54,365 nucleotides of DNA from assembly GCA_029565595.1 (NCBI GenBank), contig JAKQNV010000161.1, positions 1 to 54,365 of the forward strand, given 5' to 3'. The stretch's first letter is position 1. Every line of letters begins with the position of its first letter. The notes beneath the pieces are model-generated. The model searched no databases. It saw nothing but the letters and a program-made list of their open reading frames with translations, and had not been told where the DNA came from. The position numbers and the translations under genes were made by a program. This document shows, in pieces, positions 2,734 to 50,223 of this stretch. Source of the stretch: Candidatus Cloacimonadota bacterium (GTDB lineage: Bacteria; Cloacimonadota; Cloacimonadia; Cloacimonadales; Cloacimonadaceae).

Positions 2734-2781
2734 GCATCAGGTTTTATCCTTCAAAGAAAGGATTGGCCGTGGGAGGAAGCC

Positions 2782-4263
2782 ATGAAAAAGCTGATTGTGC
2801 TTATCCTGCTGCTTGGGTTGTGGGGGGCATCATGGGGTAAAGCGGATGTTTCGGCCTTGCTGGGAACGGCCTGCGCCGAGTTGGAAAGGCAATGTGGGGA
2901 AACCCTGGCGGGGCTGCGGTCGATCGCGGCGGGGAGCGTGGCGCAAAGAGGTAACTGGGAAGAGCTCAAACCACAGTTGGAAGAGCTGAATGCCAGGATC
3001 CCCGGGGCCTATTTCTATGCTCTGCCCGACGGCAATTATTACAGTATCGCCCTGGACTACACCAACCTGAACATCAGCGACCGGGAGTATTTTCCAGGCC
3101 TGATCGCTGGAGATGAGGTCCATGGCTGGCCGCTCTACAGCCGTTCCTCAGGCAAAAAATCCGCCCTTTTCGCAGTTCCCATAACCAGCGATGGCAAAAC
3201 AACCGGGGCTTTGGGCGCGTCACTGTTCCTGGACGATCTGAGCGCCAGCCTGACGCGCTCGGCAGCGATCCCGGCGGATTTCACCTGGTTTGTGGTGGAC
3301 CGCGAAGGCAAGACAATCCTGGACAGGGAACCGGAATACATCTTCATGAACGCTTTGGCCGATGGGGGTGAATCCCTCGCCGCGGCTATCCGGACGGTCA
3401 TTGGGAACGACCGGGGCGAGGTAAGCTACGAAATTGGAGGCATAAACCGGGAGGCGTCCTACCAAAAGCTGATCCTTCCCGATTGGTGGATGGTAATGGC
3501 GCACAGGGAGATCCCGGAACTGAGGATGCCGGACAAGATGGACCTTTCCCTGAACCACTTCGTCCCCCTCCTGCAGCGGACCTTGCAAGGCATCGACAGC
3601 TACCTGGCCTCAAGTTTGAAACTATGCCAGATCGACTGGGGGAAGAAATCCGAAATCCGGGCCGAGCTGAGGCGCTATCTGGCGGACCAGCCGCTGGTTT
3701 TCGAGGCGGCTTTCGTGGACGCGCGGGGCATCCTGCAAACGATCGAACCGCGTGATTACAAGAATTTCGAGGGGACGGACATCAGCGGCCAGAGCCACGT
3801 CCGCGAAATGCTGGCCAGGCGGACGCCGGTCTTCAGCGGGGGATTCATGACCGTGGAGGGTTACCTCGCGGTAAACATAAGTCACCCGGTGTTCGATCCG
3901 AAAGGGGAGTTTGTGGGCTCGATGAACCTGTTGGTGAGACCGGAGCTTTTGGTCTCCAACCTGACCAAGGACATCCACGTGCTGGAAAACTACGAACTCT
4001 GGATCATGCAGGACGACGGTTACGTCGTGTATGACCAGGACAAGGTGGAACTGGGCAAAAACGTCCTGACCGACCCCATGTACAAGGAATACGGAACCCT
4101 GCTGGAATTGGCCAAAAGGATCAGTTCAGACAAGCGGGGCCAGGGCCAATATGTCTATATGTTGGCCGGGCACAAGCAAAAGGGAGTGAAAACCGCCGCC
4201 TGGGACACCGTCCAACTTCAGGGCAGGGATTGGCGGGTCGTCATCACCCATCCCGAGCAATAG
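2782..4263 (+). CDS. Secreted protein with two Cache sensor-like domains
   Basis: 493 residues. MKKLIVLILLLGLWGASWG is a signal peptide; GGGAGGAAGCC precedes the ATG. Two regions look like Cache (PAS-like extracellular ligand-binding) domains. The first, about residues 55-190, has IALDYTNLNISDREYFPGL, a KKSALFAVPI strand and a GALGASLFLDDL strand. The second, about residues 300-400, has FVDARGILQTIEP, DISGQSHVREM, AVNISHPVFD and FVGSMNLLVRPELL. ISDREYF and ISGQSHV are the classic ligand-pocket boundary motifs. In receptors these domains sit between two membrane helices and feed a kinase, cyclase or chemotaxis module. Here there is no second membrane helix and no output domain, so it is probably a periplasmic or surface ligand-binding protein, or the detached sensor of a partner not in view. 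Confidence 0.75.
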   Translation: MKKLIVLILLLGLWGASWGKADVSALLGTACAELERQCGETLAGLRSIAAGSVAQRGNWEELKPQLEELNARIPGAYFYALPDGNYYSIALDYTNLNISDREYFPGLIAGDEVHGWPLYSRSSGKKSALFAVPITSDGKTTGALGASLFLDDLSASLTRSAAIPADFTWFVVDREGKTILDREPEYIFMNALADGGESLAAAIRTVIGNDRGEVSYEIGGINREASYQKLILPDWWMVMAHREIPELRMPDKMDLSLNHFVPLLQRTLQGIDSYLASSLKLCQIDWGKKSEIRAELRRYLADQPLVFEAAFVDARGILQTIEPRDYKNFEGTDISGQSHVREMLARRTPVFSGGFMTVEGYLAVNISHPVFDPKGEFVGSMNLLVRPELLVSNLTKDIHVLENYELWIMQDDGYVVYDQDKVELGKNVLTDPMYKEYGTLLELAKRISSDKRGQGQYVYMLAGHKQKGVKTAAWDTVQLQGRDWRVVITHPEQ

Positions 4264-4590
4264 GGCTTTCGCTCCATCTTTCGCCACTCCAGGCCAAAAG
4301 CCACGGATCCCGGCCTTGATATAAATTAGCCGGACCGGCGTGCTCGATGTTTTGTCCGCTTGGACATTTGAAACTGGCGTTTATTGGAGAGGATTTTGTG
4401 CGTGCTTATCCGTAGTGTAAAAAATCCTTGACACAGCTGTGCCGCCGGAAAAACACTTATTTTATAAATAATGCCGGCGGTTCAGGCGGAAGAAGCCAAT
4501 CCCTTTTGCAGTTACGGGCTGCAGCCGGCCAGGCAGAAAATGCCGGAACCGGACACCGCCGGCCGCGAAAATAAGACTCTGGGAGGAGTG
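4264..4590. promoter_or_regulatory. Intergenic region with TTGACA element and structured leader candidate
   Basis: A perfect TTGACA at 4428-4433 is followed 23 nt later by an A/T-rich TTATTTTATAAATA block. The spacing is longer than the usual 17, so the true -10 is uncertain. Just downstream, GCCGGCGG (4473-4480) is the exact complement of CCGCCGGC (4556-4563), enclosing smaller hairpins such as GGCA-gaaaa-TGCC. The ORF track extends the next gene into this region, but the reading frame there looks like chance. Confidence 0.4.
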
Positions 4591-5286
4591 ATGGACAACG
4601 AAGCGATCCGCCGCGAGGCGAGGGACTTGCTCAAGGACAAATGGGGCTCGCTGGCTCTGGTTTGGCTGATCATCTACGCGATCTACGGGATCATGAACAT
4701 CGTCATTCCGGGCTTGGGCAGCGTGGTTCCGCTGATCGTGGGCGGGCCCCTGACTCTGGGCATCACCGCCATTTTTCTCAAACTCTGGCGCCGCGAGGAT
4801 TTCCGCATCGAAGAGATGTTCGAAGGCTTCCACGATTTTACCCGCTCGCTGGTCGCTTATTTGCTGATCGGCCTCTACTGTTTTCTTTGGGCGTTGCTGC
4901 TGATCGTGCCGGGAGTCATCGCCGGCATCAGCTATTCCATGACCTTTTTCATCCTGGCGGAAGATCCCAAGATCGAGGCGGAGGCGGCCATGCGCCAAAG
5001 CAAACAGATGATGGAAGGTCACAAGACCGAATTCTTTATGCTGATGCTGTCTTTCATCGGCTGGTTTTTGCTCAGCTGCCTGACCTTCGGGATCGGCTTT
5101 TTGTTTTTGTCTTCCTACACCATGATGGCGAGCATGCTCTTTTATCAAAAGCTGAAAGGCCAGACTGCCCAAAACGCACATCAGAATTGGACGGCCCCGC
5201 CGAACCCGGTCATGCCCGAGCATCCGGAAACACCCACGGAAACTGAAACCCAGGAAGAGCCACCCAAACCCCCTGAAGAAATGTGA
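4591..5286 (+). CDS. DUF975 family integral membrane protein
   Basis: 231 residues from ATG 4591, chosen over 4471 because GGGAGGAGTG immediately precedes it and the family begins with xIRxEARxxLKxxW, seen here as NEAIRREARDLLKDKWG. About five or six membrane segments follow, including LIIYAIYGIMNIVIPGLG, YLLIGLYCFLWALLLIVPGV and a FFMLMLSFIGWFLLSCLTFG-like helix. The cytoplasmic AEDPKIEAEAAMRQSKQMM stretch is the typical DUF975 motif between helices. The C-terminal 40 residues are Pro/Glu/Thr rich. The function of the family is not established; members are often described as uncharacterised inner membrane proteins. Its stop overlaps the GTG start of the next gene by 4 nt, so the two are translationally coupled. 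Confidence 0.8.
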   Translation: MDNEAIRREARDLLKDKWGSLALVWLIIYAIYGIMNIVIPGLGSVVPLIVGGPLTLGITAIFLKLWRREDFRIEEMFEGFHDFTRSLVAYLLIGLYCFLWALLLIVPGVIAGISYSMTFFILAEDPKIEAEAAMRQSKQMMEGHKTEFFMLMLSFIGWFLLSCLTFGIGFLFLSSYTMMASMLFYQKLKGQTAQNAHQNWTAPPNPVMPEHPETPTETETQEEPPKPPEEM

Positions 5287-7426: not shown

Positions 7427-7830
7427 AAGTTGGCAGTGTGGCGCGGGACGGATTTTTGTCAATTGGTTTGGCTGTTGCTTTTCCAAACGTTCCCTGAAAA
7501 AAACTGTCAGAAGCGTCAGCCAGCACTTTTATGCCTCTCATTGTCAGACTATAGATTTCTTTCTCCATGCCTATTCATGTTATCCTGCCAAGGCAGCGTG
7601 CATGGACTTCGTGATTATTATTCTGGTTTGCGCTGAGTAAAGAAAAGTGCCTAAGTCGCTGCTCCTATATAGATCTACTCCAGCCTGGCAGGAATTGTGA
7701 TTTGACCGTCACGGCGATCCGGCTTTTTTGACTTGTTGTGAAAATCAGCCGTATTTTACTAAATATTGTCGCGCAGGGAATGGAAATTGCTTCTCTTTCC
7801 AAGAACATCCAAACGGAAAAGGAGGATACA
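7427..7830. promoter_or_regulatory. Divergent intergenic region with two promoter candidates
   Basis: TTGACT at 7728-7733 with TATTTT 18 nt downstream (7752-7757) is a sigma-70-like candidate for the gene at 7831. GGAATG-gaaa-TTGCT at 7777-7791 fits the sigma-54 GG-N10-GC spacing with two differences from the GGCACG-N4-TTGCW consensus, 41 nt before the ATG. No gene seen. Confidence 0.35.
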
Positions 7831-9051
7831 ATGAGATATCTACTGATGTTTGCGTTGTTGGGCATTGCGCTGGCGGGATACGCTTTTGACTGTACCCAGT
7901 TCGGTCCGACCGTGGATGAGCTATGGTGTGCCGATCTGCAACAGGAACCCCTCAGTTTTGGTGGCATGTCCGGTGGCTGGTCCGGCATCTTCATCGAAGA
8001 AAACGACCAGTGGGCCTTTTATTCCAATTTTCCGCAGTATATTCCGCTCTGGGACATCTACAAACGGGACGCCTCCACTTTTATGGGGTTGTTTGGGATG
8101 GGAACCTACAGCGACGGGCTTTACAACTTCGACCTGAACGCGCATTCCTGGACCATAGACGAGTGGTTCGTCTGGCCGCATTTCATACAAAAATATCCCA
8201 ACACCGGACGCTACTACGTGGGCGAGTCGATGGGCCTGTTTGATTCCTTCGACGGCAGCGAGTGGAACATCGTCATCGGGATGGGCGGTGCCGACTGCTA
8301 CAGCCTGGCCTGGCAGGACAACCACCTGGTCACAAACATCGGTTCCAGCGTCCGCTATTCCAGCGATTCCGGCCAGACCTGGCAGCAGTCATCTATGATC
8401 CTGCTCAAAGGTTTCCGTTTTGCCGCGGACGGAACGCTCTACGGGCTGATGAACGCCGGCTCCGATTCCGACGGCCTCTGGCGCTCCGAGGATTTCGGCG
8501 CCACCTGGAACGTGGTTTTCTACACCACCGGGCTTTGCTGCATCGGACCGGACTTCAACGGCGTCCTGCCCCTGGGCTGGGACCAGGTCAACGAAGTTGG
8601 CTGTCACGCCGCCCTGGTCGATTCGCTGGGCAACCTGACCCCCCTCAACCATCCCAGCCTGGCCAGCGCGGTGCGGGAAATGGAGATCTTTCCGCTGATC
8701 AACACCCCCTCCTTTTATGTGATCAATGGCGACGGCTGCTTCTATATTACCGGTTTCATCAACACGGCGGCTGAGGATGAAACCATCCCGCCCGTTCCGG
8801 AACCAGCGCTCCGGGTCTGGCCTAATCCGGCGCGTTCGCAGCTGAGGATCGCAATCGACCGGGGCAGCCAGGAGCCGGTGAGCCTCGCATTCTACGATGT
8901 GAAAGGGCGCAAGGTCCTTTCCGCCGCACCCGTCGCTCTCCGTGACGGTTGTCTAGAACAAACGCTTCCTCCGCTGCCAGCCGGGCTGTATCTACTCAAA
9001 GTAAAGCAGGGACCGCGCGTTTTCCTTGACAGGATTGTTGTCTGCAAATAG
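7831..9051 (+). CDS. Exported BNR/Asp-box-like protein with type IX sorting domain
   Basis: 406 residues from ATG 7831, which has an excellent AAAAGGAGG 8 nt upstream; the longer ORF from 7738 has none. MRYLLMFALLGIALAGYAFD is a signal peptide. The central region carries Asp-box-type motifs (YSSDSGQTW, RSEDFGATW), typical of six- or seven-bladed propellers such as sialidase-like and photosystem-assembly-like proteins. The C-terminal 80 residues (from LRVWPNPARSQLRI through FYDVKGRKVL, LPAGLYLLKV and IVVCK) match the Por secretion tail used by type IX secretion. It is therefore probably delivered through the outer membrane to the surface. The ligand or substrate is unknown; the sialidase catalytic residues are not evident. 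Confidence 0.78.
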   Translation: MRYLLMFALLGIALAGYAFDCTQFGPTVDELWCADLQQEPLSFGGMSGGWSGIFIEENDQWAFYSNFPQYIPLWDIYKRDASTFMGLFGMGTYSDGLYNFDLNAHSWTIDEWFVWPHFIQKYPNTGRYYVGESMGLFDSFDGSEWNIVIGMGGADCYSLAWQDNHLVTNIGSSVRYSSDSGQTWQQSSMILLKGFRFAADGTLYGLMNAGSDSDGLWRSEDFGATWNVVFYTTGLCCIGPDFNGVLPLGWDQVNEVGCHAALVDSLGNLTPLNHPSLASAVREMEIFPLINTPSFYVINGDGCFYITGFINTAAEDETIPPVPEPALRVWPNPARSQLRIAIDRGSQEPVSLAFYDVKGRKVLSAAPVALRDGCLEQTLPPLPAGLYLLKVKQGPRVFLDRIVVCK

Positions 9052-10032: not shown

Positions 10033-11706
10033 ATGCGGACTCAGTCTGTTTCGGCCAATCATATAGTAATCCTCTGTGTTATGCTGGCAGCTGGTTCTTT
10101 GCTGAACGCCCAGATCCCAGGCTGGCTGTGGGCTTCCAGCGCGGGCGGCCGGCTTGACGATTACAGTTGGGACCTGGCGACCGATGCCGGCGGAAATCGA
10201 TATGTCACCGGTTATTTCACCGGCATAGCAGATTTCGGAGCAGTATCCCTGGCCGGAAATGACGGCTACAACTTCTTCGCCGCCAAATACGACGCCGCTG
10301 GCAATATTTGTTGGGCCAGGCCAGGAATATCTTCCTACAGCGAGGGCAAAGGTATTGCGGCCGATTCCACAGGTTGCTGTTATGTGGCCGGGTCCTTCCT
10401 CTACTCGCTTGATTTGGGCGATTTCACTCTCACGTCCCAGGGCGGAGCGGATATCTTCGTCGGCAAACTGGATACCGACGGCAACTGGCTTTGGGCAGTG
10501 AACGCCGGAAGCGGCGGCTACGATTACAGCGGCAAGGGCATCGCGCTGGACGGCGCGGGAAACGTCTGTGTCACCGGGCTATTTGAAGGAACGGCCACTT
10601 TTGGCGCGAACATTCTCGTCAGTTCGGGCGAAGCGGATATCTTCACCGCCAAACTGGATCCCGACGGCAACTGGCTCTGGGCCAGGCGCGCGGGCGGTCC
10701 CACCTATTGGGACATGGGACAGGACCTCGCTACCGACGATAGTGGCAATATCTACCTCACCGGTCACTTCATCGGCTCAGCTGATTTTGGCCCCACAACC
10801 CTCACGGCCACGGGACTCAGAGACATCTTCGTGGCCAAACTCGATCCCGACGGCAACTGGCTCTGGGCGACCAAGGCCGGCGGCATCGATGACGATTGGG
10901 CCGGCGGAATCGCCGTGGCTGCCGACGGTTCACAGTACATAACCGGAAGTTTTCGCCGCACGGCCCAGTTTGGTGCGGAGTCGCTGTTTAGCGGAAACAA
11001 CAACTATGACGATATCTACGCCGCCAAATTGGACAGCGCCGGAAACTGGCTGTGGGCCAGGCGGGCGGGAGGTTCAAGCTATCACGATTACGGCCACGGC
11101 ATAGCTGTCAGCGCCAACGGCGGCTGCCAGGTAACTGGATTGTTCAGCAATACAGCGGATTTCGGGGATTTTTTCCTCTACAGCCGGGGCAGCGGAGATA
11201 TTTTCGCTTCTGAATTGGACAGCGTCGGCAACTGGCTCTGGGCAAAACGCGCCGGCGGGGAAGGCTGGGATTCCGGTTTTGCCATAGCCGCAGTTCCCTC
11301 GGGAGAAATATGCGTGACAGGGATCATTGCCGAGGAGGCCGCCTTCAAACCATTTGTGCTGACCAGCCTCGGCGATCAGGACATTTTCATCGCGGAAATG
11401 GCGCCTGGAGTGGACAACGACGACGAACTTGCCCCGGAAGCGGTATCTTACTCGTGTCTATTCCCGGCCCGGCCCAATCCCTGCTTCCGGTCTGAAACGC
11501 TGCGGATCAAAGCGCAGATCTCAGCTGGCGAAGAGGGCGATTTGGGACTATTCAACCTCCGCGGACAGCGTCTCGCCCAGCACAATTTGGGACCGGGCCT
11601 GCACGACATAGATTTTGATACCGGTGATCTGGCCTCCGGGATCTATCTTTTCCGGCTCTCCACCAGGAGTTCCAATGAGATAAGGAAAGTTTTTATAATC
11701 AAGTAG
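10033..11706 (+). CDS. Exported SBBP-like repeat protein with type IX sorting domain
   Basis: 557 residues. Signal peptide roughly residues 1-29 (ending SLLNAQIPG). The body consists of about seven repeats of roughly 60 residues with the recurring pattern GNWLWARRAGG...GxxIAxDxxGNxYVTGxFxGTADFG...DIFxAKLDxxG. This is the SBBP-like beta-propeller repeat found in large surface proteins. The last 80 residues (FPARPNPCFRSETLRI, LGLFNLRGQRLAQ, SGIYLFRLS, VFIIK) are a type IX-like sorting tail. It is likely a cell-surface or released propeller protein; function is unknown. The repeats are close enough at DNA level (GATCCCGACGGCAACTGG recurs) to suggest expansion by recombination. Confidence 0.8.
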   Translation: MRTQSVSANHIVILCVMLAAGSLLNAQIPGWLWASSAGGRLDDYSWDLATDAGGNRYVTGYFTGIADFGAVSLAGNDGYNFFAAKYDAAGNICWARPGISSYSEGKGIAADSTGCCYVAGSFLYSLDLGDFTLTSQGGADIFVGKLDTDGNWLWAVNAGSGGYDYSGKGIALDGAGNVCVTGLFEGTATFGANILVSSGEADIFTAKLDPDGNWLWARRAGGPTYWDMGQDLATDDSGNIYLTGHFIGSADFGPTTLTATGLRDIFVAKLDPDGNWLWATKAGGIDDDWAGGIAVAADGSQYITGSFRRTAQFGAESLFSGNNNYDDIYAAKLDSAGNWLWARRAGGSSYHDYGHGIAVSANGGCQVTGLFSNTADFGDFFLYSRGSGDIFASELDSVGNWLWAKRAGGEGWDSGFAIAAVPSGEICVTGIIAEEAAFKPFVLTSLGDQDIFIAEMAPGVDNDDELAPEAVSYSCLFPARPNPCFRSETLRIKAQISAGEEGDLGLFNLRGQRLAQHNLGPGLHDIDFDTGDLASGIYLFRLSTRSSNEIRKVFIIK

Positions 11707-25021: not shown

Positions 25022-27133
25022 ATGGACGATATCAAGGGGATCCGCACCCTCATCCTGAAAAACAGGGATCCGCAACAATTGCGCGAGGAAGTCCGGCACT
25101 ACTTCCACCAGACATACAGCATCGATGAAAAACTCTACGAAACGCTGGCTGAAGACGACACTTTCTATCTGCGCGCCGATCCGCTACGCCATCCGCTGGT
25201 CTTCTATCTGGGCCACACCGCCTGCTTTTTCATCAATAAACTCATCTACGGCAAGGTCATCAACGAGCGCGTCAATCCGGCTTTCGAATCGATGTTCGCC
25301 ATCGGCGTGGACGAAATGAGCTGGGATGACCTCAACTCAGCGCATTACAACTGGCCTCCGATCCCGGAAGTGAGGAAATACCGCGATCTGGTGCGGGCCA
25401 GGATGGACGCCCTGATCTCCGAACTCCCGCTGGACGAAAATGGCATCGGCTGGTCGAGCCCGTGGTGGGCCATCATCATGGGCATCGAGCACGAACGCAT
25501 CCATCTGGAAACCTCGTCCGTGCTGATCCGGCAACTGCCCTTGGAGAGGGTGCGCCAACTGGATTTCTGGGCTTTGTGCACGGAAAGTGGAGCAGCCCCG
25601 AAAAACGAACTGCTCCCGGTCGCCGGCGGAAAGGTCGTCCTGGGCAAGGACGACAGCGATCCGCTCTACGGCTGGGACAATGAATATGGCCGCGCGGAGT
25701 TTGAGGTAAAGGGATTCAAGGCCTCCAAATATCTGGCTTCGAACACCGAATTTCTGGAGTTCGTCGAGGCCGGCGGCTACCGGGAACAGAAGTATTGGAC
25801 CGACGAAGGCTGGGCCTGGAAAGAATTCCAGCAAGCCACGGTGCCGCGTTTCTGGCGGCAAGATCCGGACGGAAGTTATCGCCTGCGTTTGATGGCCTGC
25901 GAGATCGCTATGCCCTGGAACTGGCCGGTCGAGGTCAACTATCTGGAGGCCAAGGCTTTCTGCAATTGGAAAGCCGCCCAAACCGGCAAACCGATCCGCC
26001 TGCCTTCGGAAGAGGAATGGATGCTGTTGCGCGACACTTTTGTCAAAGACGACCAGCCCTGGTGGGTCCAGGCTCCCGGGAACATCAACCTGGAGCATTT
26101 TTGCTCCTCCTGCCCGGTGGACCGCTTTGCCTTCGGCGATTTCTACGACGTCATCGGCAACGTCTGGCAGTGGACGGAAACGCCCATCTACGCCTTTCCC
26201 GGCTTCAAGATCCATCCCATCTACGACGATTTCAGCGTTCCGACTTTCGATGGCCGCCACAACCTGATCAAAGGCGGTTCCTGGATCTCCACGGGCAACG
26301 AGGCCCTGCGCAATTCGCGCTACGCTTTCCGCCGCCATTTTTACCAGCACGCCGGATTCCGCTACATTGAAAGCGACGCGCCGGTCGCCACGCACAACGA
26401 GCCTTACGAGACCGATCCCGCCATCGTCGTCTGGTGCGATGCCAATTGGGGCGACAATCCCCTGGGCGGAAAGCATGTCAGCCTCCAACTTCTGGAACTG
26501 CTGAAACCCTGGCTGGGCGAGACCAAAATGGCTCTGCACCTTGGCTGCAAGACCGGCCGCACTACTTTCGAACTGACCCGGCACCTGGATTTCGTGACCG
26601 GCCTGGATTTCACTGCCCGCTTGATCCGGGTGGCCGCGGCAATGAAAGCAAAAGGCCGCATTCGCTACGTGCGAAACGACGAGGGCGAGATCCAGTCCTT
26701 TGTGGAGAAAAGCCTGCGTGAATACGGCTTGGAAGGCTTGGCCGATAAGGTTGATTTCTGGCAGGCGGACGTTTCCAACCTGGTGGAAAAGTTCAGCGGC
26801 TACGACTTCATCCTGGCCGAAAACGCAGTCGAAGGCGCCGTCAATCCAAAGCGCTGGCTGTCGATGATCCATGAACGCCTCAATTCCAGAGGCATTCTGG
26901 CCATCGCCGACGGCTACGATTTCAATCCGGCCGTGACGCCTGTGGAAAACCGCGTCGGCGGCTTCCGCAAGGATGGCGAGCCCTATGGCAGTTTCGAGGG
27001 CCTCACAGATCTGCTCAGCGGGCATTTCGAACTGCTGGCTGAGCCTGCGGATCTCTGGCAGACTCTGCGCGAAAGCGAGCGCAAACACACCCTCAAACGC
27101 CTGCAAGTCAGCCTCTGGCGCAAAAAGGACTGA
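25022..27133 (+). CDS. ovoA: OvoA-like 5-histidylcysteine sulfoxide synthase / mercaptohistidine N-methyltransferase
   Basis: 703 residues, the length of full OvoA. OvoA joins Cys to His C5 with O2 at a non-haem iron, the first step of ovothiol synthesis, and its C-terminal domain methylates the imidazole. The N-terminal DinB-like domain (about 20-175) has the iron ligands: His65 in YLGHTACFF and HxxxHxE at H157, H161 and E163 (EHERIHLET). The FGE-sulfatase-like domain follows (about 215-450; LPSEEEWMLL, DVIGNVWQWTETP, GGSWISTGNE). The Rossmann methyltransferase (about 465-700) starts LHLGCKTGRTTFEL. A TTGACA lies at 24960-24965. Abutting genes downstream suggest an operon. EgtB is ruled out by the fused methyltransferase. 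Confidence 0.9.
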   Translation: MDDIKGIRTLILKNRDPQQLREEVRHYFHQTYSIDEKLYETLAEDDTFYLRADPLRHPLVFYLGHTACFFINKLIYGKVINERVNPAFESMFAIGVDEMSWDDLNSAHYNWPPIPEVRKYRDLVRARMDALISELPLDENGIGWSSPWWAIIMGIEHERIHLETSSVLIRQLPLERVRQLDFWALCTESGAAPKNELLPVAGGKVVLGKDDSDPLYGWDNEYGRAEFEVKGFKASKYLASNTEFLEFVEAGGYREQKYWTDEGWAWKEFQQATVPRFWRQDPDGSYRLRLMACEIAMPWNWPVEVNYLEAKAFCNWKAAQTGKPIRLPSEEEWMLLRDTFVKDDQPWWVQAPGNINLEHFCSSCPVDRFAFGDFYDVIGNVWQWTETPIYAFPGFKIHPIYDDFSVPTFDGRHNLIKGGSWISTGNEALRNSRYAFRRHFYQHAGFRYIESDAPVATHNEPYETDPAIVVWCDANWGDNPLGGKHVSLQLLELLKPWLGETKMALHLGCKTGRTTFELTRHLDFVTGLDFTARLIRVAAAMKAKGRIRYVRNDEGEIQSFVEKSLREYGLEGLADKVDFWQADVSNLVEKFSGYDFILAENAVEGAVNPKRWLSMIHERLNSRGILAIADGYDFNPAVTPVENRVGGFRKDGEPYGSFEGLTDLLSGHFELLAEPADLWQTLRESERKHTLKRLQVSLWRKKD

Positions 27134-29104
27134 ATGCGCGCCTCTGTTCTGTTGCTGCTTTTCACGCTTCCGCTGGCTGCGGAGGTCGTCCAGATCGGTG
27201 ACGGAAACCTCACCAACCAGGGCCTGCCCATCGAGGCGGCCCGCGTTTACAGCTACTCGCAACAGCTCTATCTGGCCTCCGAGATCGGTTTTTCCGGCGT
27301 CATTAACTCCTTATCATTCCAATACAACATCGCCAGCAATATCTGGCTCGGCAACAGCGCGGCCTGGAAGATCTGGCTGGGGCAGACGGGGCGCGATTCG
27401 CTCAATTTTTGGGTTCCGCTGGATAGCCTTAGCCTCGCGTTTGACGGCGTTTTGGACGCGGGCGATTTTTCCGGAGCGCTACCTGGACAGGGCTGGCTGA
27501 CCATCAATCTGGACACGCCTTTTTTCTACGACAGCCAAAGCAATTTGCTGCTCGCGGTGGATGAAAACATGCCCGGCTCCAGCTCCACCTCGGACGAATT
27601 TATGTGCTCGCAGTGGCCAAATACGCGGGGCTTGATCTTCAATAGCATGTCCGTAAATCCCGATCCTGCCTCGCCTCCGGCCACGGGATTCTATCTGCGG
27701 AACGCCTTTGCGAACCTCCGGCTGGACCTGCAGTATTTCAGTTACACGCCTTACCAGCCACAACCGGCGGACCAGACAACCGGAGTGGATGTCAACACCG
27801 GATTCTTCTGGCAAAGCGACGCTACCAACTACGATCTTTATTTGGGAACCTCAGCTCAGGCGCTAAACCTTAAGGCGGAAAACCTGACTCAGGAGCAGTG
27901 GTTTCCAGACGAACCGCTACAGCTATTGCAGACCTATTTTTGGCAAGTGATCGCGCATCACGAAGGCTCGGTTTATCCCGGCCCGGTCTGGAGTTTCAGT
28001 ACCCGCGGCGAGGGCATCGGACCTCCGCGAAACCTGTCTGGATACTACATCGGAGACCATGTCCAACTGACCTGGGATGAGCCAGCCAGCGGAAATCCCA
28101 CGCTTTACCGGATCTACCGCGACGGCCTTTTCCTCGCCACCGGCCAGGCCTGCACGTATCAGGACTTTGAGGTGGCGACCGGGGAAAACTATTACTACTA
28201 TGTCCGGGCGGAGAACTACCTGGGCGAACTATCGGTGCCCTCGAACACAGTCACAGTGCATATTCCGGGCAACATACCGGATTTGATCCTGCAGGAAGGC
28301 TTCGAAGCCTGCGCGCCTTTTTCCCAAACGGTTTCCGGCTGGCAAAACCTCGATCTGGACGGCGCTGCCACCTGGAGCTGGGACGAGCTCGATTTTCCCG
28401 GCGAAGGCGGAGCATTAGGCTGGTTGAGTTTCTTTCCGTCGCAAACCACGCCGCCCTTGAACAGCGTAGCCGCCCACGACGGGGCCGCAATGCTCGTTTC
28501 CATGAGCAGTTTGACACCGCCCAGCAACGATTGGCTGATCTCGCCGAACCTGAATTTGGGCAGCGATCCCGCGCTGAGTTTTTGGGCGCGCTCGCATACC
28601 GCGGATTTTGGACTGGAGCGGCTGCGCGTCCTGATCTCGGGCACAGATGCCGAACCAGCAAGTTTTTCGCAACTCAACAGCGGCTCCTGGCTTTCCCTAC
28701 CGGCCGAATGGACCCAATACGCGATCGACCTTGATGCCTGGCAAGGCCAAAACGTATATCTGGCCTTCCAAAGCGTTTCCTGGGACGCCTTCGCGCTTTA
28801 TCTGGACGACATTGTCGTCACCGGCGCCGGCGGAAGCGTTGCCGCGCATGATGATTTCGTTCCTGCGGTGCGTTTTTCCGTCTTTCCCAATCCCTGTGCG
28901 GGCTCCTTTAGAATCGCCAATCCCGGCAAAGACAGGTTCGACCTCGCCATCTATGACCTGCGGGGTGGAAAGATCTATTCTGCCGAAAACCTGGCCGCAT
29001 TCGACAGCGCGGAACGCTCTCTGGATCTGCCTTCCGGGATCTACCTGTTAAAAATCCACTCCGGAAAACACAGCCAAATCCAGCGCCTGGCCGTGATCAA
29101 ATGA
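27134..29104 (+). CDS. Exported FN3 / choice-of-anchor-J-like protein with type IX sorting domain
   Basis: 656 residues, starting on the base after the ovoA stop. Signal peptide MRASVLLLLFTLPLAAEV. The N-terminal part (about 20-200) is a beta-sandwich-like domain with YSYSQQLYLASEIGF; a fibronectin type III domain follows (about 292-375; PPRNLSGYYIGDHVQLTW ... YYYYVRAENYLGE). Next is a domain starting LILQEGFEACAPFSQTVSGW, the pattern of choice-of-anchor J (MAM-like) domains. The tail (FSVFPNPCAGSFRI, LAIYDLRGGKIYS, SGIYLLKI, LAVIK) is a type IX-like sorting signal. Its stop overlaps the helicase start (ATGA). A secreted adhesin-like protein between an ovothiol enzyme and a DNA repair helicase is odd, and the functional link is not evident. 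Confidence 0.8.
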   Translation: MRASVLLLLFTLPLAAEVVQIGDGNLTNQGLPIEAARVYSYSQQLYLASEIGFSGVINSLSFQYNIASNIWLGNSAAWKIWLGQTGRDSLNFWVPLDSLSLAFDGVLDAGDFSGALPGQGWLTINLDTPFFYDSQSNLLLAVDENMPGSSSTSDEFMCSQWPNTRGLIFNSMSVNPDPASPPATGFYLRNAFANLRLDLQYFSYTPYQPQPADQTTGVDVNTGFFWQSDATNYDLYLGTSAQALNLKAENLTQEQWFPDEPLQLLQTYFWQVIAHHEGSVYPGPVWSFSTRGEGIGPPRNLSGYYIGDHVQLTWDEPASGNPTLYRIYRDGLFLATGQACTYQDFEVATGENYYYYVRAENYLGELSVPSNTVTVHIPGNIPDLILQEGFEACAPFSQTVSGWQNLDLDGAATWSWDELDFPGEGGALGWLSFFPSQTTPPLNSVAAHDGAAMLVSMSSLTPPSNDWLISPNLNLGSDPALSFWARSHTADFGLERLRVLISGTDAEPASFSQLNSGSWLSLPAEWTQYAIDLDAWQGQNVYLAFQSVSWDAFALYLDDIVVTGAGGSVAAHDDFVPAVRFSVFPNPCAGSFRIANPGKDRFDLAIYDLRGGKIYSAENLAAFDSAERSLDLPSGIYLLKIHSGKHSQIQRLAVIK

Positions 29105-31635
29105 GCGGCGTGACGCCCGTTCCGGACATCGACGACTTCATCGCCAGCCTGCTCCGGGACCGGCATTTTTCCGACAACATCGTCGCCACGCAGGAACTGG
29201 AGCCGGTGGAAGCGCTCTGGACGGGGTTTCCGCCCCAGACCAGGCCTGAGTTGCTGGCCTTGTTGAAATCCCAGAATTTCAGCGCGCTTTACGAACACCA
29301 GCGCGCAGCCATCGACGCCGCCCTGAACGGCGAAAACGTCGTCCTCAGCACCGGCGTGGCCAGCGGCAAAAGTTTGTGCTACCAACTTCCCATTTTACAG
29401 ACCTTGCTCATCTCGCCGCAAAGCAGGTCCCTGCTGCTTTTTCCGACCAAAGCCCTGGCGCAGGACCAGCAGCAGAAAATGCAAAACCTGCTTATGGAAC
29501 TCAAGCGCCAGAATCCCAAAACGCCCAACTTGAAGAGCGGAATTTACGACGGTGACACGGCCTCCGAGGCGCGCCGCGGCATCCGCAACCAGGCCAGCCT
29601 GATCTTTTCCAATCCGGACATGCTGCATCTGGGTATTTTGCCCAACCACACGCTCTGGAGCGCTTTTTTCGCCAACCTGAAATGGGTCGTGATCGACGAA
29701 GTGCACATCTACCGCGGTGTTTTCGGATCCCATTTCGCCAACGTCCTGCGTCGTCTGAAGCGGGTTTGCGCCCTGTATGGCTCCAGGCCGCAATTCATTT
29801 GTACTTCCGCCACGGTCGCCAATGCCAGGGAACTTGCCCAGGAACTTCTGGAAAGCCCCGTAACCCTTGTGGAAAAAGACTCTTCGCCACACGGACGGAG
29901 GATTTTCATGATCCTCAATCCGCCGATCGTGGATTCTGCATTGGGAATCCGGCGCAGTGCTTTGATCGAATCCACCGCCCTGGCCAAACGCTGGCTGCAT
30001 ACGTCCGGACAGGCCATCCTGTTTTGCGGTCCGCGGCGCAGCGTGGAAATCCTTTACCTGTATTTGCTTTCCAATGATTTTTATAAAAACCGGGTGCGTA
30101 GCTATCGCAGCGGCTATTTGGCCGAAAATCGCCGCCAGATCGAAAAGGAACTGCGCGAAGGCAGCATCGGGATGGTGGTTTCCACCAATGCGCTGGAACT
30201 GGGCATCGACATCGGCGGACTGGACGCGGTTTTTTTAAACAGCTATCCGGGCACCATTTCCGCCACCCGCCAGCAAGCCGGGCGCGCGGGCCGCAAGGGC
30301 AATACAGCTTTGGCCATCCTCGTCGCGAGCGCCAATCCGCTTGACCAGTACATCTGCCAGCATCCCGGCTACCTTTTTGACAACAATCCCGAACACGCAC
30401 TGATCTCGCCCGACCACCACGAGATCCTGCAAAGCCAGTTGCTGTGCGCGATCCACGACCTCGCCCTGTTGGATAGCGAAGGATTTGGCAGCCTCGGCAG
30501 CGAACACATTTTCCCTTATCTAGAAGTTTTGGTCCGTGAAGGCAAAGCCCGCAAAATTGGCAACAGATATGTCGGCGTTTTGGATGCCTATCCGGCCGCG
30601 GAAGTATCGCTGCGCAACATTTCCGAGCAGGTACAGATCCTCTCCGCCGGCGAACAGATCGGCTGGGTGGACGCCGCCAGCGCGCTCTGGATGATGCATC
30701 CGAACGCGATCTATCTGGACAAGGGCGACACCTGGATCGTCCGGAACCTCGACCTTAAAGAGGGCAAGGCGGAAATCGAGCCGATCTCCGTGAATTACTT
30801 CACCCAACCTACGCGCGACACCGAGATCGAATGCACGGCCCTGATGAACCGCCAGCCCTGCCAGGGAGCGGAAAAATACCTCGGACGGGTGAAGGTCACC
30901 ACCACCATCACCGGCTTCAAAAAACTGAAATTTTACACCCAGGAAGTCATCGGGCGCGAAGCTCTGGAGCTGCCGCCAACCCAGCTGGATACGGTGGCCT
31001 GGTGGATCGGAATTTCGCCGGAAACCGTGGCCAAAGTCAAAGCGCAGGGACTTTGGAACACCGGAACCAACGACTACGGCAAGGACTGGGCCAAAATCAC
31101 GCGCCAGATCCGCGAACGCGACAGATTCCTTTGCCAGCACTGCGGAGTCGTCGAAACCGAAACCAATCACCACGTTCATCACATAATTCCCTTTAAGAAA
31201 TTCGCCACAGCTGATGAAGCCAATGCGCCGGAAAACCTGGTCACGCTTTGCGCGCGCTGCCATCGCCTGGCCGAACAGAACGTGCAGATGCAAAACGGAA
31301 TTTCCGCACTCGGCTACCTGCTGGTCAATCTTTCCCCGTTTTTTGTGATGTGTGACCGCAAGGACATCGACGTTTTCGCCGAGGACGATTCACCCCTGGC
31401 CGGCGGCGATCCCGTCGTTCTCATCTACGACAACATTTCCGGCGGCATTGGACTTTCCCGCAAACTTTTCGATTTGCATGACCGCGTTTTGGCGGCGGCT
31501 TTGGATTTGGCGGAAAAATGCCCCTGCAGCGATGGCTGTCCTTCCTGCGTGGGTCCCGTGGCGGAAAACGGAGTCGGCGCCAAAGCCCATGCCATCGCGA
31601 TTTTGGAACAACTTGTGGAAAGGGATGGTAAATGA
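29101..31635 (+). CDS. MrfA/YprA-like DEAD/DEAH helicase with an HNH insertion
   Basis: 844 residues. Helicase motifs: Q-like and Walker A LSTGVASGKSLCYQLP (about residues 80-95), LFPTKALAQDQQ, DEVH in VVIDEVHIYRG (about 198), SAT in CTSATVANA, ALELGIDIGGLD and motif VI QQAGRAGRKG (about 391). The C-terminal zinc knot CPCSDGCPSC (about 807) is the DUF1998 signature shared with MrfA and DrmA. Between the core and that zinc knot (about 668-730) sits an HNH-type module: CQHCGVVETETNHHVHHIIPF ... LVTLCARCHRL. MrfA acts in excision repair of mitomycin-type damage with MrfB; the added nuclease-like module could replace that partner, which is not next door. It is coupled to the preceding gene by ATGA. 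Confidence 0.85.
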   Translation: MSGVTPVPDIDDFIASLLRDRHFSDNIVATQELEPVEALWTGFPPQTRPELLALLKSQNFSALYEHQRAAIDAALNGENVVLSTGVASGKSLCYQLPILQTLLISPQSRSLLLFPTKALAQDQQQKMQNLLMELKRQNPKTPNLKSGIYDGDTASEARRGIRNQASLIFSNPDMLHLGILPNHTLWSAFFANLKWVVIDEVHIYRGVFGSHFANVLRRLKRVCALYGSRPQFICTSATVANARELAQELLESPVTLVEKDSSPHGRRIFMILNPPIVDSALGIRRSALIESTALAKRWLHTSGQAILFCGPRRSVEILYLYLLSNDFYKNRVRSYRSGYLAENRRQIEKELREGSIGMVVSTNALELGIDIGGLDAVFLNSYPGTISATRQQAGRAGRKGNTALAILVASANPLDQYICQHPGYLFDNNPEHALISPDHHEILQSQLLCAIHDLALLDSEGFGSLGSEHIFPYLEVLVREGKARKIGNRYVGVLDAYPAAEVSLRNISEQVQILSAGEQIGWVDAASALWMMHPNAIYLDKGDTWIVRNLDLKEGKAEIEPISVNYFTQPTRDTEIECTALMNRQPCQGAEKYLGRVKVTTTITGFKKLKFYTQEVIGREALELPPTQLDTVAWWIGISPETVAKVKAQGLWNTGTNDYGKDWAKITRQIRERDRFLCQHCGVVETETNHHVHHIIPFKKFATADEANAPENLVTLCARCHRLAEQNVQMQNGISALGYLLVNLSPFFVMCDRKDIDVFAEDDSPLAGGDPVVLIYDNISGGIGLSRKLFDLHDRVLAAALDLAEKCPCSDGCPSCVGPVAENGVGAKAHAIAILEQLVERDGK

Positions 31636-32421: not shown

Positions 32422-33777
32422 ATGTCCCCAAAAGCCATTTTGCTCGTTGCTGTCCTGTTTTCCGCGCTGGCTTTGGCGGCCGCGTCCGGAGAATGGAGCT
32501 CCTACACCGACCAGAAATTCGCCTACAGCCTGCAATATCCGTCGGATTGGCAGGTCGCGCAAAACGTGGAAACCGGCTATTTCGAGGTCCGCAACCAGCC
32601 CGACAAAGCCGCTCCCGCCAACACTTTTGCGGTGCAGGTGGCCGATCTCGCCGAAGCGGACCGGAACATGGACTTTTACGATTACATGGCCAAAAGCCTG
32701 GCGGATATGAAAAAAAGCCTGGAAAGCCGCGGTTACAGGAACATCCGCGTGCTCAGTTCCATCGCGGACACCTTGAACGGCGCGGTGGTACATCGGATCC
32801 AAATCACTTCGAACCTCTACGGCAACCTTACCGAGCAGACGCAGATCGTCCGCATCCGCCACGGCGACAAACACTTCACCCTCACCTGCAGCGGCGAGCA
32901 GGGCTATTATTATGATCTGGCAAAACCCGATTTTGAGCGCATGATCGCCAGTTTCAAGTTCAAAACGACACTGCCAGCTTACCTGAACGACTATATCCGC
33001 GTGCGGGCCGATCTGGACGGCTCGGACACCGTTTTTCACTGGACGGGCAGCGTTTTCGGCTGGGTGCCGGGTGAAAAACGCCGCGAACTCTTTTCCGTCG
33101 AGGGTTTTTACATTGTCCGCGCCCAAGCGATGGACAACGGCTATTATCTCTTGGGACGCGAAGCCGCTTTCTTTTTGGATCACCGTACTGGCCAGTTGCT
33201 CCAGACTTGGCGCAACCCCTATACGGGAAACGATGTGCCTGTCCTGCAAGTTTTTAACGACCCGGTCAACCAGGATCTCACCTTCCCCGAGGACAATTTC
33301 CAACTATTGCCGATGATCCTGCCCAGCGAAAATCTCGGGGACATGGTGTCCTACCACAGCGAACTTTTCCCCTTCTATCCCAATCCCCTGCAGCGCAAGG
33401 ATTTTCCGCTGAGTTCACAGAACAACAATTACCAGGCGGCCGAATTCACGCAATACCTCGCGTCCCGGGCCGACCTGGCAAATTCAGATCTGACCAGCGT
33501 TCCGGCCACTTTCACTTTCACCAGGATCTATCCCTGGCTGCCTTTCATGCTGATGGGCGAGCGATCCGGAAACGTGGTCATGGTCTGCCGCGGACGCAAG
33601 CTGGAAAACGGATTTGACGACCTGCCGCAATACATCAAAGACCAGGTCAAACAAAACAAACCGGAGTTTTCCTCTGCGCCGGAAAACTACACTCAGCCAA
33701 ACGAAACGATCTGGTCCTATTTCAAAAAACAGGCGGAAAACGCCGCCGGAACGACCGTGGACGTCCCGGAACCCTGA
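32422..33777 (+). CDS. Exported PsbP-like / DUF1838 fusion protein
   Basis: 451 residues. Signal peptide MSPKAILLVAVLFSALALAAAS. Residues about 24-185 resemble the PsbP/MOG1-like alpha-beta sandwich (FAYSLQYPSDWQV, FEVRNQPDKAAPANTFAVQV, GDKHFTLTCSGE). Residues about 190-440 match DUF1838 (DTVFHWTGSVFGWVPGEKR, GREAAFFLDHRTGQLLQTW, NPYTGNDVPVLQVFNDPVNQ). DUF1838 proteins are generally exported and uncharacterised, and the combination with a PsbP-like domain is one I do not know as standard. No type IX tail. The ribosome binding site is AAAGGA, spaced somewhat far from the ATG. Copy B of the repeat lies upstream. Confidence 0.7.
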   Translation: MSPKAILLVAVLFSALALAAASGEWSSYTDQKFAYSLQYPSDWQVAQNVETGYFEVRNQPDKAAPANTFAVQVADLAEADRNMDFYDYMAKSLADMKKSLESRGYRNIRVLSSIADTLNGAVVHRIQITSNLYGNLTEQTQIVRIRHGDKHFTLTCSGEQGYYYDLAKPDFERMIASFKFKTTLPAYLNDYIRVRADLDGSDTVFHWTGSVFGWVPGEKRRELFSVEGFYIVRAQAMDNGYYLLGREAAFFLDHRTGQLLQTWRNPYTGNDVPVLQVFNDPVNQDLTFPEDNFQLLPMILPSENLGDMVSYHSELFPFYPNPLQRKDFPLSSQNNNYQAAEFTQYLASRADLANSDLTSVPATFTFTRIYPWLPFMLMGERSGNVVMVCRGRKLENGFDDLPQYIKDQVKQNKPEFSSAPENYTQPNETIWSYFKKQAENAAGTTVDVPEP

Positions 33778-46558: not shown

Positions 46559-46608
46559 GTTTGAACTTATCAATAACGATGAATCTGAGTCCCAAGGGAT
46601 TGAATAAT

Positions 46609-49600
46609 ATGAAAAAACTGATTTTACTCAGCGGGCTGATCGCCCTTTGCGGAGCGGCTTTTGCCCTCACGCTCAACCTTAATGTGGATCCCGCCGCCTG
46701 GACCGGCCAGACGCGTGGAATGCAGACCGAGCCTCTGTTGGAGCCGGGAGTTCCGCAACTGAATTATGTGCCGGTGCGTGTCCTGCTGCCTTTCGGAGAA
46801 AAGGTGCAAGGCGTAACTATAACCTGTTCCAATCCCGTTCTGCAAAGGGAAAACCTGGTTTTGGACTACGTCCGCGCCCAACAGCCGACTTCGCAGCCCC
46901 AACCCGACGCGACGGTTCCGGATCCGGCGATCTGGAACAGTTCCGCGCTTTATCCTGTTAGGGATTTCGAGTATCTAGGCACGCAGTTCATGCGCGGTTA
47001 CCAGATCGCGGTGCTCAATCTTTTTCCCTGGAAGTACAATCCGGTCGCCCGTGAACTCTTTGCCAGCGCGGATTTCGAGATCGAGATCGACACCGCCTGG
47101 GACGCCGTAACGGCGGAAAAATCCGCCAATTTCTTTGCCCCCGCTTTGAGTGATGCCGACGTCCGCGCTTTGGTTCTGAATCCTGACATTGCCAGCAGCT
47201 ACAGCGCCGCCCCGGCCTGGCGTTCGCACACTCCGCAGAGCCGTCTGATCGACCTGACCGTCCCCAAAAAGATGATCATCGTTACCAACGACGCCAGTGC
47301 GTCCTACTTCCAGAATTACATCCAGTGGCGCGCCAACCAGAACGTCAGCACCGCGGTGTACCTGACCTCGGATATTTATTCTTCCTACACTGGGACGGAC
47401 AACGCCGAAAAAGTCCGTAATTTCATACTCGATGCCTATCAAACCTGGGCCGGGACCTCCGAGCCTTTGGAATACGTGATCCTCGGCGGCGACGACGAGA
47501 TCGTGCCGCTGCGCGGCTGCTACGGCCAGGTGGGCGATACTGTCGATCAACGCATGCCGACGGACATCTATTTCAGCAACCTAGACGGCACCTGGAACGC
47601 CGACGGAGACTTGCTTTGGGGCGAACAGCTCGACGAAGTGGACATGTTGCCCGAAGTCCATATCGGCAGATTTCCCGCGGAAACGGCGGCCGAATTCGCC
47701 AACATGTTCCGCAAGATCGAATACTACGTCAACAACAACACTTTCAGCAACAACATCGCTATCATGTTCGGCGAAAACCTGAACTGGAATCCCGTCACCT
47801 GGGGCGGCGACTACAAAGACGACGTTGCCACGCACATTCCGGAGTCCTACCATCTGCGCACCATGTACCAGCGCGATGGCACCTACAGCGAACAGGGCGT
47901 TTGGAACGCCATCAACAACGGCGCCCACGTGATGAACCACATGGGCCACGCGAACGAAACATTTCTGATGGGCCAGGGCAACAACACCATCGAACAGCTG
48001 GATAACAGCGAATACGGATTCCTCTACACGCAAGGCTGCTATCCCGCCGCTTTTGACCAGGCTACCAGCGGCGACGGCGAAAGCATCGCCGAACATATGG
48101 TCACGACCGACGGCGGCCTCTTTGCCTTTATCGGCAACACCCGTTACGGCTGGTACGCGCCCGGCAGCATCAACGGCGCTTCGGAATTCTATGACCGCCA
48201 GTATTTCGTCGGGCTTTATGAAACCCTGAACACCCAGTTCGGCAAGGCCCTCAGCTATTCGCGCCTGCAAAATCTTAACGCGGCCCTGAGCAACGATGTG
48301 ATGCGCTGGTGCTACTACGAGGTCGTCCTGTTTGGCGATCCCTCCATCGAGGTCAAATACCCGGATCCCTCGCTGCCTTTGCTCAGCCTGGAAAACTACA
48401 CCATTTCGGACGTCGAGGGCGATAACGACGGCAGCATCAACCCCGGCGAGATCTTGCGCATTTATCCGGTGATCCGTAACGAACAGGGTTGGGCCACGGC
48501 CTACAACGTCAGCGTCAGTTTGGAAGACCTTCCCGCCGGAGTGCAGATCCTGGACGGCGGTCTGACCATTCCGCAGATCCAACCCGGCCAGACCAACGAT
48601 CCCAACCTCTTCATCCGCTTGCAATTGCCAACCGACAGCGGCTACGGAAATTACACCCTCCGCCTGGTCCTGGACGCGGTGCACCCGGTCACCAACCTCA
48701 GCATCGGAGTGCGCAAATTCAAGATCGATTATACAATTACACTGATCGACAATCGCTTCCCCTGGGATTGCCAGGTCGGCACCAAATCCGCCCCCATCGT
48801 CTATGACATGGACGGCGATGGCAGCCTGGACATCCTGTATCAGGACGTCTTTGGCGAAGCGTATTACATCAACGGCCAGGGCGACGATTTCGACGGCTTC
48901 TATAACGGCCCGCAGCAGGACATCATGCGCAGCTCGGCCTTTGGCGACATCACCGGCGACGGCAGCCCCGAAATTGTTTACGCCAGCCGCACGGGACACA
49001 TTTTCGCCTCTTCCGGAGAAGGCGTCCAGATCCTGAATTATCAAGGCGGCAGCCCCTTCCTTTTCACTCCGGTGATCGCCAGACTCGATAATTCCGGCAC
49101 GGACAAGGTCGTGGCCGGGTCACTGAACGGAAACCTGCACGCCGTCAATGCCAACGGTACGCCCGTCAGCGGATTTCCGGTCAACCTGGGCTCCGCATTT
49201 TACTCCGAACTGGCAGCCGCAGACCTCGACGGGGACGGCGCTATGGAGATCATTGCCGGCACTCAGGACGGCAAACTGCATATCGTCCGCGGCAACGGCA
49301 CCGAGTCTTCCGGATTCCCCATCCAACTTGACGCCGCGATCACCGGCGCGCCTGTCGTGCTTGACGACAACAGCATCCTGGTGGGCACGAACACCCACGC
49401 TCTGCGTATTTCGCACCAGGGATACATCCTTTTCAACGAGCCGATCGAGTCGCCCATGGCCGGCGGCGCGGTCCTGGCGGATATGGACGGCAGCGGCGAC
49501 CTGGACATCGTTTTTGTCACGCTGGGCGGAATGCTCTATGAGATGTACCAGAACGGCGATGTCGCGGGCGGTTTCCCGGTTTCCCTGGGCGCCAATTTCA

Positions 49601-50223
49601 ACACCCCGCCGCTGATCGCCAATCTGGATGCTGATTACTACCCGGAAATACTGCTTTCCAGCTATATCAATTCGGTTTATGCCTACAACAACGACGGCAG
49701 CCCTGTGGCGGGATTTCCTTTCCTGACCTCGTTCAACGGCTGCACGCCCGGCACGCTCTGCGATTTTGACGACGACGGTATGCTCAAGCTTGTAAGCGGT
49801 TATTCGACCGGCGTTTTGGTGCTCAACCTGCGCCGCGCGGAAACGCCCGTCATGCCTTGGACGACGTATCGCGGCTCGCTCAAGCGCCAGGGCAGTTTTG
49901 CCGCCACTGGCTACGTGGAGGACGGAGACGTTACCGCGCCTGTGTTTTCCGACCGCTTGGGCCAAAATTTCCCGAATCCTTTCAACCCCAGCACCACCAT
50001 CTCTTTCCAGACCGCGAAGGACGGCGACGCCAGCCTTGCCATCTTTAACCTGAAAGGCCAGCTGGTGCGCCAGCTGCAGACCGGTTTCGTTGCCAAAGGC
50101 GACCACCGCCTCGTCTGGGACGGCCAAGACGCAAACGGCAAAACAGTCGCCAGCGGAGTGTATCTCTACCGCCTGCAGACGCGGGACGCCGTCCTCACCC
50201 GGCGCATGTTGCTGGTGAAATGA
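46609..50223 (+). CDS. Exported C25 (gingipain-like) peptidase with FG-GAP-like propeller and type IX tail
   Basis: 1204 residues from ATG 46609 (AAGGGA upstream; the ORF-track extension to 46561 lacks a start signal). Signal peptide MKKLILLSGLIALCGAAFA. Propeptide-like region about 20-215; peptidase core about 220-600 with KMIIVTNDASASYF, VILGGDDEIVPLRG, and the catalytic pair His in VMNHMGHANE (about 447) and Cys in TQGCYPAAFD (about 475). Ig-like strand about 600-710. FG-GAP/VCBS-like propeller about 715-1090 (YDMDGDGSLDILYQ, AADLDGDGAMEIIAG). The end is a complete sorting tail: FPNPFNPSTTISF, IFNLKGQLVRQ, WDGQDANGK, SGVYLYRL, RRMLLVK. C25 enzymes cut after Arg or Lys; specificity here is unknown. 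Confidence 0.88.
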   Translation: MKKLILLSGLIALCGAAFALTLNLNVDPAAWTGQTRGMQTEPLLEPGVPQLNYVPVRVLLPFGEKVQGVTITCSNPVLQRENLVLDYVRAQQPTSQPQPDATVPDPAIWNSSALYPVRDFEYLGTQFMRGYQIAVLNLFPWKYNPVARELFASADFEIEIDTAWDAVTAEKSANFFAPALSDADVRALVLNPDIASSYSAAPAWRSHTPQSRLIDLTVPKKMIIVTNDASASYFQNYIQWRANQNVSTAVYLTSDIYSSYTGTDNAEKVRNFILDAYQTWAGTSEPLEYVILGGDDEIVPLRGCYGQVGDTVDQRMPTDIYFSNLDGTWNADGDLLWGEQLDEVDMLPEVHIGRFPAETAAEFANMFRKIEYYVNNNTFSNNIAIMFGENLNWNPVTWGGDYKDDVATHIPESYHLRTMYQRDGTYSEQGVWNAINNGAHVMNHMGHANETFLMGQGNNTIEQLDNSEYGFLYTQGCYPAAFDQATSGDGESIAEHMVTTDGGLFAFIGNTRYGWYAPGSINGASEFYDRQYFVGLYETLNTQFGKALSYSRLQNLNAALSNDVMRWCYYEVVLFGDPSIEVKYPDPSLPLLSLENYTISDVEGDNDGSINPGEILRIYPVIRNEQGWATAYNVSVSLEDLPAGVQILDGGLTIPQIQPGQTNDPNLFIRLQLPTDSGYGNYTLRLVLDAVHPVTNLSIGVRKFKIDYTITLIDNRFPWDCQVGTKSAPIVYDMDGDGSLDILYQDVFGEAYYINGQGDDFDGFYNGPQQDIMRSSAFGDITGDGSPEIVYASRTGHIFASSGEGVQILNYQGGSPFLFTPVIARLDNSGTDKVVAGSLNGNLHAVNANGTPVSGFPVNLGSAFYSELAAADLDGDGAMEIIAGTQDGKLHIVRGNGTESSGFPIQLDAAITGAPVVLDDNSILVGTNTHALRISHQGYILFNEPIESPMAGGAVLADMDGSGDLDIVFVTLGGMLYEMYQNGDVAGGFPVSLGANFNTPPLIANLDADYYPEILLSSYINSVYAYNNDGSPVAGFPFLTSFNGCTPGTLCDFDDDGMLKLVSGYSTGVLVLNLRRAETPVMPWTTYRGSLKRQGSFAATGYVEDGDVTAPVFSDRLGQNFPNPFNPSTTISFQTAKDGDASLAIFNLKGQLVRQLQTGFVAKGDHRLVWDGQDANGKTVASGVYLYRLQTRDAVLTRRMLLVK

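Follow-up and report, generated by a model that had tools for sequence, protein, structure and literature searches.

The window, by which we mean the whole stretch of 54,365 nucleotides of Candidatus Cloacimonadota DNA analyzed here, carries a gene for an exported protein that consists of two tandem dCache domains (Table 1). The preliminary description of this DNA had placed an open reading frame with a signal peptide and a stop at this locus, and both the frame and the sequence bear this out, the stop codon being TAG (signal peptides and lipoboxes were judged by eye throughout). It had also spoken of two Cache-like domains. The Cache assignment is confirmed, but their number is not: the protein contains two complete double-Cache domains. 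Pfam matches dCache_1 (PF02743) in the N-terminal half at 50.3 bits and in the C-terminal half at 56.0 bits, each alone above the gathering cut-off of 45, and the C-terminal half also matches PF22309 at 95.9 bits against a cut-off of 27. PF22309 is a sensor module that takes its name from histidine kinases, guanylate cyclases and chemotaxis proteins. The structure prediction that had been proposed as a check agrees with this result. In an AlphaFold2 model built on a six-member alignment (mean pLDDT 87, pTM 0.79), a unit made up of a long helix and then two alpha/beta modules occurs twice in the chain, from helix 23-49 to strand 235-241 and from helix 257-281 to strand 482-491; as both units are complete, there are four Cache modules, not two. 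The kinship of the two halves is only distant (18% identity, profile E 5e-8).

Table 1. Features of the tandem dCache gene and its product, in window positions.
Feature	Position	Strand	Basis
Shine-Dalgarno-like GGGAGG ahead of ATG	2771..2776	+	Sequence reading
CDS, exported tandem dCache protein, 493 aa	2782..4263	+	ORF; same-length orthologs
Signal peptide, about residues 1-21, MKKLIVLILLLGLWGASWGKA, without lipobox	2782..2844	+	Sequence; ortholog N-termini
N-terminal dCache_1, residues 23-243	2848..3510	+	Pfam 50.3 bits; model; PDB profile search
N-terminal dCache, first (distal) module, residues 73-160	2998..3261	+	Conservation
Flexible linker, residues 244-256	3511..3549	+	pLDDT <50 at 245-251
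C-terminal dCache_1 / PF22309, residues 257-491	3550..4254	+	Pfam; PDB E 1.7e-48; model
C-terminal dCache, first (distal) module, residues 304-396	3691..3969	+	Alignment of relatives

Past the signal peptide the protein has no hydrophobic stretch, and in the sequence, the orthologs and the model alike its last strand is the end of the chain. Also, a Pfam scan of the 493 residues found no output domain. The earlier view of a protein without a second membrane helix or output domain thus holds, and it is for lack of these two parts that we place the protein in the dCache_1 family, yet outside the dCache receptors. The sole families matched in Pfam are Cache/PDC sensor families, with no match to solute-binding protein profiles, to Peripla_BP_6 or to a VWA domain preceding the Cache part, and a search of NCBIfam returned no family for the tandem protein. 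It resembles the solute-binding proteins that stimulate membrane receptors in that it is exported, sometimes lipidated, and presumably carries a ligand to a membrane partner, and it shares with them export without an output domain. However, they have the solute-binding protein fold while the tandem protein has Cache domains, and judged from its domain matches it is not one of them by fold.

Orthologs and origin of the tandem

More than 20 orthologs, mostly 40-50% identical to the window protein over nearly the full length, share its end point. They come from Cloacimonadota, Campylobacterota, Pseudomonadota, Syntrophales and Neomarinimicrobiota, with hosts such as Sulfurovum, Thiobacillus, Gallionellaceae, Methylophilaceae and Smithella; among them, one distant tandem member from Cloacimonadota is 29% identical to the window protein. 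In the intact tandem members the chain closes at most a few residues from the final strand of the second dCache domain, and beyond the signal sequence none of them shows a strong membrane helix. In three orthologs (L029, L030 and L041) a lipobox replaces the plain signal peptide. One more tandem dCache gene, on contig C6 of genome G014 (29486-30689; loci L007, L019 and L053), lies in two overlapping frames, which points to a broken copy or else to a fault of the assembly.

In a tree of the C-terminal half, the 19 tandem rows group together, which requires one change, i.e. a single origin of the tandem (support of the fork 84/67; the group appears in 86% of bootstrap trees). The sister of this clade consists of single-dCache proteins of Cloacimonadota, with support of 100/100. 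Rows of different phyla are intermixed within the tandem clade, which suggests that the free protein spread horizontally in its finished form. Within the genus of the window genome, the distribution of the tandem is patchy (2 of 13 genomes).

Because dCache domains are usually the sensor domains of receptors, the gene might be regarded as what remains of a membrane receptor after loss of the second helix and the output domain, or as truncated or misassembled, and a frameshift or misassembly after position 4263 had indeed been named as the point on which the initial reading could fail. Such a break is contradicted by 21 other full-length relatives that end at the same point. Furthermore, the orthologs have diverged by about 50% and yet are intact, the tandem has a single origin, and the DNA downstream bears no coding trace of HAMP or of an output domain. 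We therefore give this explanation practically no weight.

Relatives without a transducer in Cloacimonadota

A search for PF22309 in 123 Cloacimonadota genomes found 31 places, all with open frames of 222-611 aa. In the 29 of them that were checked singly, every segment resembling a membrane helix is N-terminal and of the signal or anchor kind, and these 29 proteins leave no room for an output domain. It thus appears, as far as the sequences tell, that none of the 31 PF22309 proteins of Cloacimonadota has a transducer. They are of four kinds, namely single dCache proteins, mostly with a lipobox (e.g. L017, L021 and L057), N-terminally anchored forms mostly of about 420 residues, dCache domains fused behind Peripla_BP_6 (L012 and L018), and the tandem. 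Single dCache lipoproteins that resemble the N-terminal half exist as well (L067 and L069). As both halves occur alone as free proteins, the tandem appears to have arisen by fusion of two such proteins. An alignment of 19 tandem, 6 single, 9 anchored and 2 fused sequences and 5ERE indicates that P323, D333-I334, S352 and E359-G360, in the distal module of the C-terminal half, are kept in tandem, single, anchored and most of the PBP-fused relatives.

Gene neighborhood and candidate partners

No neighbor of the tandem gene is conserved across 21 loci. In the window, no gene was recognized in 4264-4590, and the next gene in the 3' direction, at 4591, encodes an unrelated DUF975 membrane protein. 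Other kinds of membrane protein are present among the window genes scanned, none of which matched a receptor or transporter family, and the gene neighborhood thus offers no candidate partner.

The window's own genome assembly is 84% complete. It contains no MCP or MCPsignal domain and no second PF22309 protein, and among the histidine kinases examined with Pfam none has a Cache sensor. Its only dCache_1 transducer is a dCache-HAMP-SpoIIE phosphatase (L022), which lies on another contig and has no link to the tandem gene. A search for co-occurring receptors with matching Cache domains, the second check that had been proposed, hence brought out no evident one in this genome, which has neither an MCP nor another PF22309 protein; the incompleteness of the assembly means that a partner could be missing from it. 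Likewise, a role as a chemotaxis accessory is unlikely in this organism, as the MCPsignal domain is absent from the 84% complete assembly. A transporter would be as plausible a partner as a receptor.

Permease and sensor operons of relatives

Relatives of the protein occur in operons that bear on this question (domain names were read with Pfam in G112 and G080, and the remaining genomes were matched by similarity and gene order). In three genomes (G112, G113 and G108), the genes encode in order a Cache lipoprotein, an anchored PF22309 dCache protein, a REC-PAS-GGDEF-type protein and Xan_ur_permease. A dCache_2-type membrane protein comes next in G112 and G108, and in G112 it is a histidine kinase. 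The G112 operon lies at L094:7259-16357 and has matching loci in L131 and L133, with the dCache_2-type sensor gene in L094 and L131. In G080 and G081, the genes after the dCache gene encode a small Cache protein that is free, another Xan_ur_permease and a dCache_2 sensor, which in G080 is a full dCache_2-HAMP-SpoIIE phosphatase. Three other genomes (G114, G115 and G111) have retained genes for the Cache lipoprotein, the dCache protein and the response regulator, with no permease seen in the stretch covered, the contig of G111 being short. At another locus (L088), a PBP-dCache fusion has a dCache_2 sensor and also a response regulator as its neighbors.

In the window's own genome there is a single Xan_ur_permease and a single dCache_2 protein, encoded side by side. 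A 310-residue Cache lipoprotein without a transducer (L137:8065-8994; dCache_2/sCache_2 by domain) ends 9 bases before the start of the permease (the pair spans L137:6721-8994, contig C181), and the same pair of a free Cache protein and then a permease recurs in eight other loci (G005, G051, G080, G090, G092, G108, G112 and G124). In G080 (second copy), G081, G082, G087 and G119, the permease is instead flanked on its other side by a membrane Cache sensor. Such alternation of free and membrane Cache proteins beside a permease is what the pattern of a ligand-capturing partner would look like, and by its gene order the lipoprotein of the window's genome appears to be a binding protein of the Cache type that serves an NCS2-type transporter. 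Within the genus, the permease is present only in the two tandem-bearing genomes. We nevertheless dropped a permease link for the tandem, as wider in its family tandem and single forms occur without the permease (about ten genomes of family f1 have these forms without any Xan_ur_permease).

It would be tempting to conclude that the tandem protein serves substrate capture for a transporter only, feeding organic acids or nucleobases to a secondary permease or an ABC system whose genes lie at another locus, with no part in signaling. The fusion of the C-terminal type of dCache to Peripla_BP_6 and the free Cache lipoproteins directly before Xan_ur_permease, in the same genome and in eight other loci, are in line with this idea. 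However, no transporter gene lies beside the tandem gene in the window and its orthologs have no conserved neighbor, the operons of the relatives include sensors and a GGDEF protein, and the permease of the same genome already has a Cache lipoprotein of its own. We thus consider a purely transport-related role unlikely, though worth keeping in mind.

Distal modules and candidate ligands

The distal module of the N-terminal half is the most conserved region of the protein, with a mean column entropy of 0.97 bits vs 1.3-1.9 in the remaining folded part, and G84, N85, Y86, Y87, N97, R101, Y103, F104, S120, R121, G124 and K126 are near-invariant in it. In a profile search of the PDB, the solved proteins closest to this half include, as named sensors, KinD (4JGO, E 3.6e-6) and DctB of V. 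cholerae (3BY9, E 0.04), both similarities being weak. An N-x-x-x-R-x-[YF]-F stretch is common to all three and S-R-x-[ST]-G to the N-terminal half and KinD. Unlike the tandem protein, which has two dCache domains and no kinase, KinD and DctB are histidine kinases of the membrane that have a single dCache domain each. The ligand is pyruvate for KinD and C4-dicarboxylates for DctB, and a published table puts both under carboxylic acids (PMC8694187). Given the arginines and the resemblance to these two proteins, our best guess from the sequence is that the N-terminal half would bind a small carboxylate.

For the C-terminal half, the nearest solved relative is the dCache domain of 5ERE (Dret_0059 of Desulfohalobium retbaense; profile E 1.7e-48), which shares E359-G360, D333-I334 and S352 with it. 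Ahead of its dCache domain 5ERE has a further domain of about 320 residues, where the tandem protein has a second dCache; the Peripla_BP_6 found in the related L012 and L018 identifies the 5ERE-type leading domain in these relatives. Cytosine is given for the dCache domain of 5ERE in the published survey (PMC8694187). This kinship, together with the permease operons of relatives, suggests that the C-terminal half may possibly bind a nucleobase-like or other compact ligand. We hold the nucleobase idea loosely, because most carriers of tandem or single forms in the window's family are without that permease. The ligand motifs compared were those for amino acids (dCache_1AA) and purines (dCache_1PU); a hand alignment tentatively places the non-acidic residues S147 and L384 at the key Asp of the amino-acid motif.

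The conservation of the distal module also bears on two further roles. In a Foldseek search, the model matches, along some 500 columns that take in both dCache units, alpha2-delta and Cachd1, which like the tandem protein are extracellular and have two dCache units per chain, and one could imagine a structural or assembly factor whose Cache modules make protein-protein contacts, as in the alpha2-delta of animal calcium channels. These proteins, however, are animal and membrane-anchored, have VWA and other parts, and are about 12% identical to the tandem protein. TM-scores are low, since the units are positioned differently toward each other, the tandem protein has no VWA domain, and its most conserved part is the distal module, the ligand site of dCache domains. 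We regard a structural role as very improbable. Somewhat less improbable, but still doubtful, is a ligand buffer, decoy or extracellular scavenger that lowers the free concentration of a metabolite or is released as a shared, public binding protein, with no membrane partner. The lack of a co-conserved partner gene in the 21 loci and of a membrane anchor in the window's copy would fit such a protein, whereas the versions with a lipobox and the occurrence of anchored relatives in operons with sensors and permeases point to a role at the membrane surface, and the strong conservation of the distal module suggests specific recognition.

Discussion

We propose as the probable explanation that the gene encodes a free periplasmic ligand-binding protein of two tandem dCache domains, which acts via a separate partner in the inner membrane. 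Sec export would bring the protein into the periplasm, where each dCache domain would bind a small molecule in the first of its two modules, the distal one, as conservation and solved relatives suggest, the N-terminal domain most likely taking a small carboxylate and the C-terminal one perhaps a ligand that is nucleobase-like or otherwise compact. Because the protein has neither a second membrane helix nor an output domain, it cannot signal by itself. Instead, the loaded protein may dock on a separate sensor or transporter of the inner membrane, in the way that solute-binding proteins do. Stimulation of membrane receptors by loaded solute-binding proteins is an established and widespread mechanism (PMC9602780). 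Against the proposal speak the absence of a conserved neighbor at the 21 loci, of an evident matching receptor in the window's genome and of a general permease link, as well as the patchy distribution within the genus.

The preliminary description had suggested that a free sensor could act like a binding protein that presents its ligand to a membrane receptor, and that receptors with matching Cache domains be sought. The first part of this idea is well supported, if indirectly, since the family has been kept transducer-less, relatives are lipoproteins or are fused to Peripla_BP_6, and anchored relatives stand in operons with a permease and Cache sensors; the second part, a receptor with matching Cache domains, did not emerge. 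More broadly, we speculate that free Cache proteins, whether single, tandem or PBP-fused, might form a class in several phyla that serves both sensors and permeases and couples uptake to signaling, although we put this forward only tentatively.

In the 2016 survey of Cache domains, architectures have known output domains with the exception of one family, SMP_2 (PMC4822843). The literature that we searched, which included few subscription papers, does not describe the tandem family, and the only free Cache protein in it is 5ERE, which was noted as unusual. That a family with two dCache domains but without an output part is conserved across phyla suggests that Cache domains act as free binding proteins too, a role so far credited to other folds, and the operon links of the relatives name candidate partners.

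Other proteins of the window

Three proteins of the window (7738-9051, 10033-11706 and 27134-29104) have Por_Secre_tail sorting domains, which the tandem dCache protein lacks. A 1220-aa protein at 46561-50223 has a Peptidase_C25 domain (gingipain-type), FG-GAP repeats and, at the C-terminus, FlgD_ig, and a 451-aa protein at 32422-33777 has a PsbP-like N-terminal part and DUF1838. Also, a 703-aa protein at 25022-27133 has DinB_2, FGE-sulfatase and methyltransferase domains, a layout that we take to be that of OvoA-type ovothiol synthases and that would be unexpected if the lineage is anaerobic.
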